Source of the DNA: an archaeon | GTDB lineage: Archaea > Nanobdellota > Nanobdellia > Woesearchaeales > UBA9642 | Direction of reading: 5' to 3' | DNA: 59,311 nt | NCBI GenBank assembly: GCA_020057295.1 | Contig: JAGVGF010000004.1 | Coordinates: 1 to 59,311 of the forward strand | Shown: piece after piece, positions 4,819-51,470 of the stretch | How the letters are laid out: each line of letters begins with the position of its first letter | Numbering within the stretch: position 1 is the stretch's first letter | Made by a program: the position numbers and the translations under genes | Notes under the pieces: model-generated | What the model was told of the DNA's origin: nothing | Seen by the model: the letters and a program-made list of their open reading frames with translations, nothing else | The model's database searches: none

Positions 4819-5221
4819 TGTTTAATAATGGTTAGCACGTCGTACTTGAATCTAGGCTAGACATAGATCAATCTATAATTTATAACCTGCTCTACCCCAC
4901 AGAGTACTTAACCACATTTATACACCCACCACTTTTTATAACACTACACTGTAAGTGAATGTTTATAAAGGTTTTTCTTTTATTAAGGTATACAAACGGA
5001 TACTAACTTAAGACGATACAGCACTTACTATGTAGTGAAAAAATTTTATAAAAATCTTTAGTATTTTATTATATCTTTTTGATTGAAATTTTCGTTAAAA
5101 TTAAATCTAAAATTGTATAAAACAAAAACGAAAAATATATATGATTATGTAAAATCAAACATTAGTAACATTTAGGATTATACGAAATATTTATAAATGA
5201 TTTATTGGTTCTTTAGCTTGT
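4819..5221. promoter_or_regulatory. Intergenic region between the S8 gene and the tRNA cluster
   Basis: No coding frame is seen. On the minus strand a TATA-like element (TGTATAAATG, about 4912-4921) would place the S8 mRNA start near 4890, giving a leader of about 70 nt. On the plus strand, ATATTTATAAAT at about 5187-5198 is well spaced for the tRNA-Asn gene at 5222. Further TATA-like stretches at 4962-4970 and about 5045-5053 have no assigned gene. The region also holds the inverted repeat pair described separately. Confidence 0.5.
4942..5037. repeat. Pair of 16-bp inverted repeats, possible operators
   Basis: CACTACACTGTAAGTG (4942-4957) and CACTTACTATGTAGTG (5022-5037) are reverse complements at 14 of 16 positions, 64 bp apart. 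Each half is itself nearly palindromic (CACT...AGTG). They could be two sites for one dimeric regulator upstream of the S8 gene, or the ends of a very small insertion. Which of these applies is not known. Confidence 0.45.
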
Positions 5222-5293
5222 GCCCCCTTAGCTTAGTGGTGGAGCGCGAGACTGTTAATCTTGAGGTCGGCAGTTCGATCCTGCCAGGGGGCG
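5222..5293 (+). tRNA. tRNA-Asn(GTT)
   Basis: The acceptor arm GCCCCCT pairs with AGGGGGC, with G as discriminator. The anticodon stem is CGAGA/TCTTG and the loop CTGTTAA gives anticodon GTT. A T-arm with TTCGATC is present and CCA is not encoded. There is no intron. Confidence 0.95.
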
Positions 5294-5359
5294 TATATTA
5301 TTTCACCACACTAATTATTTTATGGATTGTAAATAATAGACCATAAATTATTATTAATC

Positions 5360-5477
5360 GAGCCCGTAGCTTAGCCTGGTGGAGCGCACGACTGATAATT
5401 GTGTCAGTCCTGATGTATTGCATCATGCAAACACATCTGATATCGTGAGGTCCCGTGTTCGAATCACGGCGGGCTCA
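5360..5477 (+). tRNA. tRNA-Ile(GAT) with 44-nt intron
   Basis: Acceptor GAGCCCG pairs with CGGGCTC, discriminator A. The anticodon stem is CACGA (5387-5391) and TCGTG (5443-5447). The loop reads C-T-GAT-A, then an intron at 5398-5441, then A38. The intron sits between positions 37 and 38, the usual archaeal place, and would be cut by the archaeal tRNA splicing endonuclease. The anticodon GAT is at 5394-5396. Confidence 0.93.
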
Positions 5478-5480
5478 TCG

Positions 5481-5514
5481 AATATTTTAATGCTAAATAA
5501 ATATTTTAATGCTA
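5481..5514. repeat. 15-bp tandem direct repeat at the 5' end of the Hel308-like gene
   Basis: AATATTTTAATGCTA occurs at 5481-5495 and again at 5500-5514, 19 bp apart, right after tRNA-Ile. Each copy has a TATA-like core and an ATG. It may be a duplicated promoter, or a scar from the event that joined the helicase fragment to the tRNA gene. Confidence 0.6.
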
Positions 5515-5535
5515 CATAAGCATTTGTTAATTCTC

Positions 5536-7206
5536 ATGAAAACAGAAGTTATTCGCGTTGAAGATAGAAATTCTGATTCTACAATAAATCTTGCTATAGA
5601 CACATTAGTACTAGGTAAACAATGTATAATATTTGTTAATACGAAGAAGGGTGCTGAAAGTCTTGCAGAAAAATTATCACAAGTAATATTTAAAGATAAA
5701 AAAAATAATTATAAAAAGTTGATAGATGAAGAAAAATTGAAAATATTATCACATAAAATTGTCACAGCCGTTTCTACGCCAACCAGACAGTGTCATAGAT
5801 TAAGCGAATTAGTAATGTATGGTATGGCATTTCATCATTCAGGTTTAGTAAGTGAGCAAAGAAGTTTAATTGAAGATAATTTTAGAGATGGAACTGTAAA
5901 AATTATTGTAGCCACCCCAACACTTGCAATGGGTGTCGATCTTCCTGCATTTCGTGTGATAATTAGAGATTTAAAAAGATTCGGCCTGTGGGGTATGCAA
6001 TACATTCCTGTACTAGAATATGAACAACAGGCTGGAAGAGCTGGAAGACCAAGTTATGATAATTATGGTGAAGCAATATGTATAGTAGATGATGCAAGTG
6101 AAAAATTAGAAGTTAAAGAAAAATATATAAATGGTGTTCCAGAAGAAATAATTTCAAAACTTGCTGTAGAACCAATAATGCGAACATACATTTTAAGTTT
6201 AATAGCATCAGAATTTATTAGAACAACAAAAGATTTAGAAAAATTCTTTGAAGAAACATTCTATGCAAAACATTATGGAGATACAGAAAAACTTAGACAA
6301 ATAATTCATAGAATGCTAGAACAATTAGAAGAGTGGGAATTTATAATAGTTGGTGAAGGCAGCGAAAAAAACAAGAAAGAAACTGATAAACAAGATTTTG
6401 TTAGTGCATTGAAACTAACGTTCAAAAAATCAGGACAAGCAGAAGAAAAAGTTTATGCTACATTGATAGGACGCAGAGTATCTGAATTATATTTAGATCC
6501 TTATGCTGCATACAATATTATTGAAGCATTAAAAATAGGATTAAAGAAAAAATCTGAAGATAAATTTACTAGTTATTCTATAGTGCACTTAATATGCAAT
6601 TGTTTAGAGATGAGACCGTTACTTAGAACAAAGTCTAAAGAAATAGATGAAATGACTGAAGAGATAAACATAAATTCTGATTTTATATTAACAGAAATCC
6701 CCGAAATATTCGACGAGGAATATGAAGAATTTTTGAATGCCACTAAAACTGCAAAATTTTTCATGGAATGGCTTGATGAAAAAGATGAAGAATATTTATT
6801 GGAAAAATATGATGTAAGACCTGGGGAATTACATTCAAAAAAAGATATTGCAGACTGGTTATTATATAGTTCAGAAGAATTATCAAAACTCTTAAAGATG
6901 CACGTGATGATAAAAGATATTGCAAAATTAAGATTTAGACTAAAATACGGTGCGAAAGAAGAATTAATACCTTTATTACAATTAAAAAATATTGGACGAA
7001 TCAGAGCAAGAAAATTATATGATAATAAGATACGAGATGTAGCAGATATTAAAAAAACAGATTTAACAACATTAACACAGTTACTGGGAAAAAATGTTTC
7101 TCTCGACGTAAAAAAACAAGTTGGACAAGAATTATCGGATGATAAAATTGTTGTTAAAGAAAATAAGAGAAAAGGACAAATCAATTTAAATGATTACGAC
7201 ACCTGA
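5536..7206 (+). CDS. Hel308/Ski2-like helicase lacking the first RecA domain (C-terminal part)
   Basis: Hel308 unwinds stalled replication forks in archaea and normally has about 700 residues. This ORF starts at the linker before RecA2 and carries 'FVNTKKGAESLAEKL', 'AFHHSGLV', motif V 'ATPTLAMGVDLPAF' and motif VI 'QQAGRAGRP'. The winged-helix, ratchet and helix-hairpin-helix parts follow ('LKNIGRIRARKLYDNK'), with a 'GQINLNDYD' tail. Motif Q, Walker A GKT and the DExH box are absent, so it cannot act alone as an ATPase. I chose ATG 5536 as a leaderless start after the TATA-like repeat; ATG 5509 adds nine residues. It is either one half of a split gene whose N-terminal half lies elsewhere, or a decayed gene. 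The intact long frame favours a split gene. Confidence 0.85.
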   Translation: MKTEVIRVEDRNSDSTINLAIDTLVLGKQCIIFVNTKKGAESLAEKLSQVIFKDKKNNYKKLIDEEKLKILSHKIVTAVSTPTRQCHRLSELVMYGMAFHHSGLVSEQRSLIEDNFRDGTVKIIVATPTLAMGVDLPAFRVIIRDLKRFGLWGMQYIPVLEYEQQAGRAGRPSYDNYGEAICIVDDASEKLEVKEKYINGVPEEIISKLAVEPIMRTYILSLIASEFIRTTKDLEKFFEETFYAKHYGDTEKLRQIIHRMLEQLEEWEFIIVGEGSEKNKKETDKQDFVSALKLTFKKSGQAEEKVYATLIGRRVSELYLDPYAAYNIIEALKIGLKKKSEDKFTSYSIVHLICNCLEMRPLLRTKSKEIDEMTEEININSDFILTEIPEIFDEEYEEFLNATKTAKFFMEWLDEKDEEYLLEKYDVRPGELHSKKDIADWLLYSSEELSKLLKMHVMIKDIAKLRFRLKYGAKEELIPLLQLKNIGRIRARKLYDNKIRDVADIKKTDLTTLTQLLGKNVSLDVKKQVGQELSDDKIVVKENKRKGQINLNDYDT

Positions 7207-10890: not shown

Positions 10891-10935
10891 ATTTAAAAAC
10901 TGTTTAATACTTTGAATAGCGATAGGTGGTTATTT

Positions 10936-11256
10936 ATGATGTTTTGTCCAAAATGTGGGTCGATGTTAAGACCAAAAGTTGTTCGCGATAAAAAAGTACT
11001 TGGATGTAATTGTGGATATGTTGCAGATTCAGCGCAAAGCACAGTAACATTTACACAAAAGAGGGACGATGTAAGTAAAGAGGTTGAAATTTTAGAGAAA
11101 GAGATATCTGTACATCCAATAGTTGATGAGGAATGTCCTAAATGTAAGAATCCTAAATCATATTTTTGGAGTCAACAAATGCGTGCAGGTGATGAACCTG
11201 AAACACAATTTTTTAAATGTACAAAATGCAGTCATCAGTGGAGGGGCAGTAAATGA
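10936..11256 (+). CDS. Transcription factor S (TFS/RpoM-like), copy 1
   Basis: TFS enters the RNA polymerase funnel and stimulates cleavage of backtracked RNA, like TFIIS. The N-terminal zinc ribbon has 'CPKCGS' and 'GCNCGY'; the second pair is C-X-C, not C-X2-C. A linker leads to the C-terminal ribbon, 'CPKC' and 'CTKC', with the catalytic loop acids in 'RAGDEPET'. The start at 10936 matches the paralogue's start and follows an AGGTGG ribosome site (10924-10929). The stop overlaps the next start (ATGA), so translation is coupled. Confidence 0.88.
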   Translation: MMFCPKCGSMLRPKVVRDKKVLGCNCGYVADSAQSTVTFTQKRDDVSKEVEILEKEISVHPIVDEECPKCKNPKSYFWSQQMRAGDEPETQFFKCTKCSHQWRGSK

Positions 11257-11519: not shown

Positions 11520-11840
11520 ATGAAATTTTGTCCAAATTGTGGTTCGATTTTAAAGGCGAAAGATGTTGATGGAACAAAATATTTGGGTTGTAGTTGTGGT
11601 TATATTGATGACAAAGGCACAAGTATTGTAACTTTCAATGATAAAAAGCACGTTCATAATGTTGAAGTTGTAGAAAAAAGTGATGCACCGCACGTAATAG
11701 TTGAAGAGGCATGTCCTAAATGTGACAATAATGAAGCAGAACATTGGACACAACAAGTAGGACCGAGTGATGAACCAGAATCAAACATCTTCAAATGTAC
11801 GAAATGTAATTATAGTTGGAGAGACACACATCATTACTAG
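11520..11840 (+). CDS. Transcription factor S (TFS/RpoM-like), copy 2
   Basis: 106 residues, with the same two zinc ribbons as copy 1: 'CPNCGS', 'GCSCGY', 'CPKC' and 'CTKC'. The cleavage loop 'GPSDEPES' keeps the two acids needed to stimulate RNA cleavage. It also shares the C-X-C variant in the first ribbon, so the two copies look like a local duplication around the DUF167 gene. Ribosome site GAGGTG is at 11509-11514. Unlike the inhibitory TFS4 of Sulfolobus, which lacks the acids, both copies look active. Confidence 0.88.
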   Translation: MKFCPNCGSILKAKDVDGTKYLGCSCGYIDDKGTSIVTFNDKKHVHNVEVVEKSDAPHVIVEEACPKCDNNEAEHWTQQVGPSDEPESNIFKCTKCNYSWRDTHHY

Positions 11841-47294: not shown

Positions 47295-47420
47295 CGCCGC
47301 GGGTGGGATTTGAACCCACAAATCCTTTCGGACACTGAATCAATGCGCGTAATGCGTGGTAATCATAAGCACGCATAGTGCTTAGCAATCCAGCGCAGTA
47401 CCAGGTTGTGCCACCGCGGC
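47295..47420 (-). tRNA. tRNA-Ser(GCT) with 42-nt intron
   Basis: On the minus strand the acceptor GCCGCGG pairs with CCGCGGC, discriminator G. The anticodon stem is CTGGA/TTCAG and the loop T-T-GCT-A then A38, giving anticodon GCT (47386-47384). An intron at 47382-47341 lies between positions 37 and 38. The long variable arm TGTCC-GAAA-GGAT marks a class II tRNA. A TATA (CTTTATAAAA) lies about 35 nt upstream. Confidence 0.88.
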
Positions 47421-49634: not shown

Positions 49635-51470
49635 ATGACTGATAGAATAGTTCCAGATACAAGTGTACTCATTGAAGGCATACTTTCTAAAAAGATTACT
49701 AATGATGAAATACTTCCTAAAGAGATAATAATACATGAAGCATCATTGTCTGAATTAGAAGCACAGGCAAATACTGGCCGTGAAATAGGGTATATGGGAT
49801 TAGATGAGATAAAGAAATTACTAGCATTATCTAAAGAAAGAAAATTCACAATAAAATTTTCTGGCGAAAAACCTTCAGAAGATGAAATATCTAGAGCAAG
49901 AAAAGGCGGAATAGATTCTCTGATAAGAAATCTTGCCTATGAATTAAAAGCTACACTTGTTACAGTTGATAAAGTCCAAGCATTAACCGCTGAAGCTAAA
50001 GGCATCGATGTTATACTAATAAAAGTGGATGTTTCTCCTAAACCTCTAATCTTAGAAAAATATTTTGATTCTACAACAATGAGTGTTCACTTGAAAGAAA
50101 ATTGCAAGCCTAAAGCTAAAAAAGGTGTTCCTGGTAAATGGGAGTATGTGGAAATTTCACAAGATGTTATTGATAAAGATACTATGAAAGTTATAGCTAA
50201 AGATATTATCGAAGAAGTTAATATGCGTAATGATGCATTTATAGAAGTTGAAAGAAAATATTCTACGATTGTACAATTAGGAAAATTTAGGATAGTTATT
50301 GTTAGACCTCCTTTCGCTGATGGTTATGAAATTACTGTTGTAAGGCCCGTTAAAAAATTAAATTTCTCAGATTATCCTATGAGCGAAAAATTACGTGAAA
50401 GAATAGAAGCACATGCTGAAGGAGTATTAGTTGCAGGAGCGCCAGGACATGGTAAGAGTACGTTTGCACAAGCACTTGGAGAATTTTATTCGTCAAAAAA
50501 TAAAGTTGTAAAAACTATTGAAGCACCGAGGGATTTAGTTTTAACTGATGATGTTACACAATATGCAATAACTTATGGTACATCGCAAGAAATTCATGAT
50601 ATATTATTATTATCTAGACCAGATTATACTTTGTTTGACGAAATGAGAAATACGGATGATTTCGCACTATTTTCAGATTTAAGACTTTCTGGTGTAGGAA
50701 TGATTGGTATATTACACGCAACTAACCCTATTGATGCAATACAACGATTTATTGGACGTATAGAATTAGGAGTTATTCCTCATGTAATGGATACTGTAAT
50801 ATTTATCAAGAATGGTACTATAGAAAAAGTGTTCGCTGTAAGTTTAGAAGTAAAAGTTCCTAGTGGAATGATGGAAGCAGATTTAGCAAGACCTATAGTT
50901 GTAGTGAATGATTTTGAGACTGGAAAATTAGAATTCGAAATATATAGTTATGGTGAAGAAACTATTGTTGTTCCAGTACAAGTGCAAAGTGTAAGTCCTG
51001 CTGCAGAACTTGCTGCACGTGTCGTTAAAGAAGAGTTTTTGAAATATTCTGATTTCGTACGTGTAGATATGGTTAGTAATAATAAGGCAGTAGTATTTGT
51101 TCCAGAATCAAGAAAGGCAATGATTATCGGAAAGCAAGGAGCGAATATTGAACAGATAGAAAAACGTTTAGGATTAAGTATTGATGTTCGAGAACTTACT
51201 GAAAAAACATCGTCTGGCAGAGATAAGATATCAGCTGGTAGTAGAGACAGAACAGTATATTATCAGGTAAAATTTGATAAGAAAAATATTACTTTTATAT
51301 TGACTAATGAATCTGCAGATAAAGAAACGGATATATATGTTAATGATGAATTTGTACTAACTGTAAAAAGTGGAAAGAATGCTGTCATAAAGATAAATAA
51401 ACAGAGTAGTCAGGGTAGGACTATTGCAAATGCATTAAATGAACAGGAAAAAGTAGAATTAAGGCAGTAA
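49635..51470 (+). CDS. PINA-type protein: PIN nuclease domain, PilT-like ATPase, KH domain
   Basis: 611 residues. The N-terminal PIN domain has D8, E40, D94 and D112-type acids ('VPDTSVL', 'ASLSELEAQAN', 'GGIDSLI', 'TVDKVQA'). The ATPase has 'GAPGHGKST' (268-276), 'FDEMRNTDD' and 'GILHATNPIDAI'. A KH domain follows ('AMIIGKQGANIEQIEKRLG'). In Sulfolobus PINA acts with the Holliday-junction nuclease Hjc and with Hel308. GGTGATTAA precedes ATG 49635. It is present whole here, while Hel308 is not. Confidence 0.92.
   Translation: MTDRIVPDTSVLIEGILSKKITNDEILPKEIIIHEASLSELEAQANTGREIGYMGLDEIKKLLALSKERKFTIKFSGEKPSEDEISRARKGGIDSLIRNLAYELKATLVTVDKVQALTAEAKGIDVILIKVDVSPKPLILEKYFDSTTMSVHLKENCKPKAKKGVPGKWEYVEISQDVIDKDTMKVIAKDIIEEVNMRNDAFIEVERKYSTIVQLGKFRIVIVRPPFADGYEITVVRPVKKLNFSDYPMSEKLRERIEAHAEGVLVAGAPGHGKSTFAQALGEFYSSKNKVVKTIEAPRDLVLTDDVTQYAITYGTSQEIHDILLLSRPDYTLFDEMRNTDDFALFSDLRLSGVGMIGILHATNPIDAIQRFIGRIELGVIPHVMDTVIFIKNGTIEKVFAVSLEVKVPSGMMEADLARPIVVVNDFETGKLEFEIYSYGEETIVVPVQVQSVSPAAELAARVVKEEFLKYSDFVRVDMVSNNKAVVFVPESRKAMIIGKQGANIEQIEKRLGLSIDVRELTEKTSSGRDKISAGSRDRTVYYQVKFDKKNITFILTNESADKETDIYVNDEFVLTVKSGKNAVIKINKQSSQGRTIANALNEQEKVELRQ

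Follow-up and report, generated by a model that had tools for sequence, protein, structure and literature searches.

Can a gene that encodes only one of the two lobes of a helicase motor be anything but a broken relic? In superfamily 2 (SF2) helicases, the motor consists of two RecA lobes that close on one ATP, and both are almost always part of a single chain. The window analyzed here, a stretch of 59,311 nucleotides (nt) from contig JAGVGF010000004.1 of the archaeal assembly GCA_020057295.1 (order Woesearchaeales), contains a gene for a 556-aa protein at 5536–7206 (+) that resembles the archaeal repair helicase Hel308 (Hjm) without its first RecA domain (RecA1). From the letters of the window alone, the initial annotation had suggested that the gene is split and that the missing part is encoded elsewhere. 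We indeed found a lone RecA1 half on another contig of the same genome, and the same two-part layout throughout the order. The short window gene is a conserved subunit and no broken relic. Judged by sequence, its product is very probably the large subunit of a Hel308 that is encoded by two genes, and the ATP site would be shared with the small subunit, the RecA1 lobe from a distant locus.

Two complementary parts of Hel308 in one genome

A Pfam search of the window protein returned Helicase_C, HTH_61 and Helicase_dom4_arc, and found no DEAD domain (RecA1). The match to the ratchet domain (domain 4, PF21280) scored 102 bits, above the cut-off, HTH_61 remained just under its cut-off (23.9 bits) and HHH_5 below (18.7 bits). 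Among solved structures, archaeal Hel308/Hjm was the top match (phmmer; 2ZJ2, E = 8e-78), and the alignment to this 720-aa chain extended from residue 228 through residue 688. The absence of a DEAD domain, together with an alignment that only starts at residue 228, therefore identifies the window protein as Hel308 without any RecA1 domain, in agreement with the initial annotation. The remainder of the protein is likewise as intact as had been described: the frame is unbroken over 556 codons and contains motif IVa (HHSGL, 5833–5847 (+)), which governs annealing and unwinding in Hel308 (PMC10484726), as well as motifs V (ATPTLAMGV) and VI (QQAGRAGRP), both read directly from the sequence at 5911–6054 (+). 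Regarding the borders of the feature, the end at 7206 was correct, whereas its start had been set at 5481, a noncoding position where a 19-nt tandem repeat begins. The first ATG of the open frame is at 5509 (5509–7206 (+), 565 aa), and we prefer the ATG at 5536, which agrees better with the N-termini of relatives.

The genome of the window comprises 1.2 Mb in 6 contigs; its listed completeness is 100% and its listed contamination 0.46%. A DEAD profile match in this genome led to a 218-aa frame on contig C4 (77248–77901 (−)), which stops just past motif III, exactly the kind of frame for which the initial annotation had suggested a search. It carries PTASGKT (Walker A), DEIH and SAT (PF00270, E = 8e-33), and Hel308 came first when it was compared with solved structures (2ZJ2, E = 1e-63). 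Its neighbors on contig C4 are an argS-like gene, named from its sequence, and an unrelated gene. Along the 739 positions of the NCBIfam model PRK02362, the RecA1 half covers 7–217 and the window protein, hereafter the C half, covers 218–717, without gap or overlap. Indeed, both full-length models, NF040935 and PRK02362, were matched as two complementary pieces that each remained under the cut-off, and neither half is a chain of ~700 aa that passes the full-length cut-offs. Summed over both proteins, the five domains and the motifs are the same as in Hel308/Hjm (PfuHjm 2ZJ2, Afu Hel308 2P6R and the Ski2-type 2VA8): the second gene, and not the window gene, provides RecA1 with Walker A, DExH and SAT, and the window gene provides the RecA2 motifs IVa, V and VI, the winged helix, the ratchet and the C-terminal helix–loop–helix. 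The known enzymes, however, are single chains of ~700 aa, whereas here RecA1 is a separate protein encoded by a distant gene. By profile search, the PF21280 domain occurs once in the genome, and neither another lone RecA1 half of Hel308 nor a hidden fused copy was found there. The remaining SF2 helicases of the genome are Lhr-like, Hef-like, XPD/rad3-like and one DEAD-box protein.

The initial annotation had placed the cut at the border between RecA1 and RecA2, which is nearly right. In PfuHjm, domain 1 spans residues 1–197 and domain 2 spans residues 198–399 (PMC2636818). The RecA1 half, which ends in ...WRPVQLKKGIYLDNSIEFY, aligns to PfuHjm (2ZJ2) up to at least residue 210. As the alignment continues past residue 197, the first RecA2 strands, about 15–20 residues, sit on the RecA1 protein, and the break is therefore close to the border but about 15–20 residues inside domain 2 of PfuHjm. 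The ends of 48 split RecA1 proteins nearly all fell within a few residues of one point, with short charged tails in a few of them.

Distribution and conservation of the split

Among 60 close relatives, the RecA1 half was matched in 56, always as a frame of 215–281 aa, and the C half in 55, a count to which a few genomes contributed nothing but weak paralogue matches. We then turned to an even sample of 236 genomes from one phylum, 148 of the same order and 88 of other orders of the class (presence defined as a match at E ≤ 1e-25, tallied by hand from the match lists). Within the order, the RecA1 half was present in 139 genomes, the C half in 136 and both in 128; 11 genomes had only the RecA1 half, eight only the C half and one neither. 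All 137 in-order RecA1 frames listed were 212–299 aa long and separate from the C half. In the other orders, 21 of 88 genomes had both parts in one frame of 687–747 aa (one of these 21 fused frames runs off its contig and was shorter, 648 aa); the remaining genomes were nearly all without either Hel308 part. The parts are thus at separate loci in the order and in a single gene in relatives. In two single-contig genomes, the halves were ~37 kb (G015) and ~142 kb (G118) apart, which rules out a frameshifted normal gene; in G138, they were on one contig, ~3 kb apart and in divergent orientation. Neither sign of decay that the initial annotation had named, a missing RecA1 half and loss of the frame in relatives, was found.

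Profile searches for the missing halves of one-half genomes turned up only paralogous helicases. Four genomes with a listed completeness of 97–100% (G011, G097, G117 and G127) have the RecA1 half, and their C half was not found even by this search; G060 is the reverse case, with a C half and no RecA1 half. Many genomes of the order additionally encode a second, unsplit Ski2-like helicase of ~650 aa that is ~30% identical (matches of 630–760 aa, e.g. L152); no such frame turned up in the genome of the window.

To describe conservation, we counted motifs in 48 RecA1 halves and 50 C halves, and compared the C-terminal tail with that of 21 fused relatives. GKT (Walker A), DE[IV]H and SAT were kept in 48/48 RecA1 halves. 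HH[AS]GL and motif VI (QxxGR[ASC]GR, with a GR[CS]GR variant in two) were kept in all 50 C halves. Within the genus, most differences were at codon position 3 and the fewest at position 2. The window protein ends in a tail resembling a PCNA-interacting protein (PIP) box (NKRKGQINLNDYDT, 7162–7203 (+)) that is typical of the split form: the pattern [KR]GQxx[LIVM]xx[YF] was found at the C-terminus of 45 of the 50 split C halves and of none of the 21 fused relatives (Fisher's exact test, p = 1e-13, uncorrected for relatedness). The fused Hel308 of other orders (e.g. G069; L117, 711 aa) are otherwise the closest relatives, with the same domains and the same linker position, but they are encoded by one gene and have no KRKGQ-type tail. 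In a phylogenetic tree, the C halves formed one clade (support 83/89), with the fused proteins of G069 and G171 from other orders as nearest neighbors. This is most simply explained by a single fission event at the base of the order.

Two kinds of insertion or fusion were observed among the C halves. LAGLIDADG-like inteins of ~500 aa, recognized by eye, interrupt motif V in some C halves of several families; they start with C, end with HN before S, and are inserted at TPTL / S-GVDLP. Carriers are L171, L172 and L173 (G044, G128 and G032) and, judged by size, G012, G093, G104 and G209, as well as G001 with a frame break. Failed splicing at this site would destroy the product, and inteins in motif V therefore speak for a working protein. 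In G045 (L028, 1477–3783), one frame comprises both the C half, without its KRKGQ tail, and a methyltransferase domain (PF05430); either a second fusion occurred or a stop codon was lost.

Split genes for information-processing enzymes have been described in reduced DPANN archaea before. In Nanoarchaeum equitans and Nst1, they include reverse gyrase, a large helicase-related protein, DNA polymerase I and others (Podar et al., PMC3655853). The likeness to Nanoarchaeota that the initial annotation had drawn therefore holds in kind, one enzyme being encoded by two distant genes, but Hel308 is not on that list (PMC3655853), and its split, unlike those, is fixed across a whole order. A split Dph1/2 in some Woesearchaeota, Pacearchaeota and others, mentioned as a cited result in PMC6349945, concerns the same broad archaeal group but a different enzyme, with no motor cut between two ATPase lobes. 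In the open literature, we found no earlier description of a split Hel308 and no paper with both Woesearchaeota and Hel308, although an earlier report is possible; helicases and Woesearchaeota are also absent from the main text of a survey of archaeal gene fusion and fission (PMC11237513). The split hel308 would extend split genes from isolated cases in Nanoarchaeota to an order-wide change in a DNA repair motor, and would provide a marker for the order. Annotations would also be corrected, since each half alone resembles a truncated helicase.

A proposed two-subunit helicase and its alternatives

How might two such proteins work together? In the most plausible scenario, a rearrangement in the ancestor of the order cut a single hel308 just inside the start of RecA2, and each piece would have kept its own start and stop codons, inherited ever since. 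The two proteins would most likely bind to each other without a covalent link, the RecA1 subunit providing the nucleotide site and the large subunit providing the motif VI arginine finger and the DNA-threading ratchet, which would together permit ATP-driven unwinding. We infer that the terminal strands of RecA1 (WRPVxLxxGIYLDxxIEF) would complete the RecA2 fold by pairing with its sheet, and could act as a lock. The tail of the large subunit, judged by its pattern, probably binds PCNA: in PfuHjm, PCNA is bound by a PIP box at the C-terminus (PMC2636818). Compared to a QxxhxxaY/F-type box, the C-terminus of the window protein (GQINLNDYDT) does not have the second aromatic residue of the canonical motif, and PCNA binding is therefore a prediction. 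One could go further and imagine an exchangeable small RecA1 ATPase lobe on a large, PCNA-tethered DNA-binding subunit, where gain and loss of the lobe would switch between ATP-driven unwinding and ATP-independent annealing, but we regard this extension as rather doubtful. If the lobes of a repair helicase are separated across an order, this amounts to a natural experiment on how tightly they must be linked, and halves that can be expressed separately would serve kinetic and annealing studies of Hel308/HELQ.

Several points weigh against a two-subunit Hel308. About 19 of the 148 in-order genomes had one half only, and true losses are possible; these numbers nevertheless fit incomplete assemblies, under which 0.7 genomes with neither half are expected and one was seen. 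A single origin cannot be read from the RecA1 tree, which is too short and placed two long-branched fused sequences among the split ones, although a single clade of the split RecA1 halves was not rejected (approximately unbiased (AU) test, p = 0.51). The distances of the two halves correlated over 23 genomes (r = 0.60, Mantel p < 0.001), which indicates co-inheritance and not binding, as shared descent alone predicts the same. Lastly, an AlphaFold prediction of the C half alone (4 sequences) had a predicted local distance difference test (pLDDT) score of 46 and is uninformative either way.

Of the alternatives, the one that survives best is that the halves no longer form one helicase, the C half binding DNA or annealing strands by itself, without ATP, and the RecA1 half serving some other purpose. 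The C half does contain motif IVa, by which annealing is controlled in Hel308 (PMC10484726), and the four nearly complete genomes described above have RecA1 without a C half. The frequency of missing halves, however, is what incomplete assembly predicts, and separate roles would not demand both the motif VI arginine finger, found in 50/50 C halves, and the Walker A and DExH motifs, found in 48/48 RecA1 halves. In addition, the WRPV strands, which are part of RecA2, are retained by the RecA1 half. We consider separate roles improbable. Even less likely is that the halves are joined into a full-length Hel308 after transcription or translation, by RNA trans-splicing or a split intein. Precedents would be the trans-joined tRNA halves of N. 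equitans (PMC3655853) and the inteins present in some C halves of the order, but these inteins are complete and located inside motif V, away from the break, and no split-intein sequence was seen at either end of the break, where RecA1 frames stop right past the linker and C halves have start codons of their own. A pseudogene remnant of hel308, suggested by the truncated look of a gene without an ATP-binding domain, and an artefact of assembly or binning (contig break, chimaera or frameshift), suggested by the high contig numbers of most surveyed genomes, which are probably metagenome assemblies, are both hardly credible: every half examined has intact motifs, the 556-codon frame is unbroken with a RecA1 gene elsewhere in the genome and the same layout throughout the order, and both halves are contig-internal with unrelated neighbors, cut identically in over 120 assemblies and, in the two single-contig genomes, separated by tens of kb.

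Surroundings of the window gene

The C half is placed behind tRNA genes, as previously noted, although there are two of them: tRNA-Asn(GUU) at 5221–5294 (+), found likewise in G002 and G003 of the same genus, and an intron-containing tRNA at 5360–5477 (+), with an anticodon read as Ile(GAU), that matched Rfam with 52.1 bits and was missed by ARAGORN. All three loci inspected within the genus had this tRNA-Asn/tRNA-Ile pair ahead of the C half. The intron of tRNA-Ile is kept in three loci of the genus (the window, L017 and L018), with variable sequence and length, and an intron in tRNA-Asn is present in G002 and in neither G000 nor G003. More broadly, in 9/40 loci from seven families, the C half was preceded within 400 nt by a tRNA gene, often for Asn or Ile (7 on the same strand), compared to 1/40 control loci (20 RecA1 and 20 fused; p = 0.014, uncorrected for relatedness).

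The 19-nt tandem direct repeat (5481–5499 and 5500–5518 (+), 95% identical) is outside the preferred coding sequence, and inspection by eye did not reveal it in the corresponding gap between the genes of G002 and G003. The initial annotation had taken a tRNA gene and this repeat as marks of the break. This did not hold: the split is common to the whole order, so that the tRNA genes and the repeat, a local duplication, do not mark a recent break. The tRNA-Asn and tRNA-Ile genes may nevertheless date from the original rearrangement, and the cut itself may have brought the C half into its place behind the pair, whose transcription it would have borrowed.

An intact PINA-like protein (PIN, T2SSE and KH domains) is encoded at 49635–51470, 44 kb from the C half, in line with the earlier statement that PINA is whole in this window. 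In Sulfolobus, PINA binds Hjm via its KH domain (Zhai et al. 2018, as cited in PMC8775617), and the window alone does not give a link between the PINA-like gene and the C half. Further along the window, two similar small zinc-ribbon proteins are encoded close together (10912–11256 and 11520–11840), the first matching the TFIIS type (TFS-like), and a 126-nt tRNA at 47295–47420 (−), likely intron-bearing, was matched by Rfam and missed by ARAGORN.
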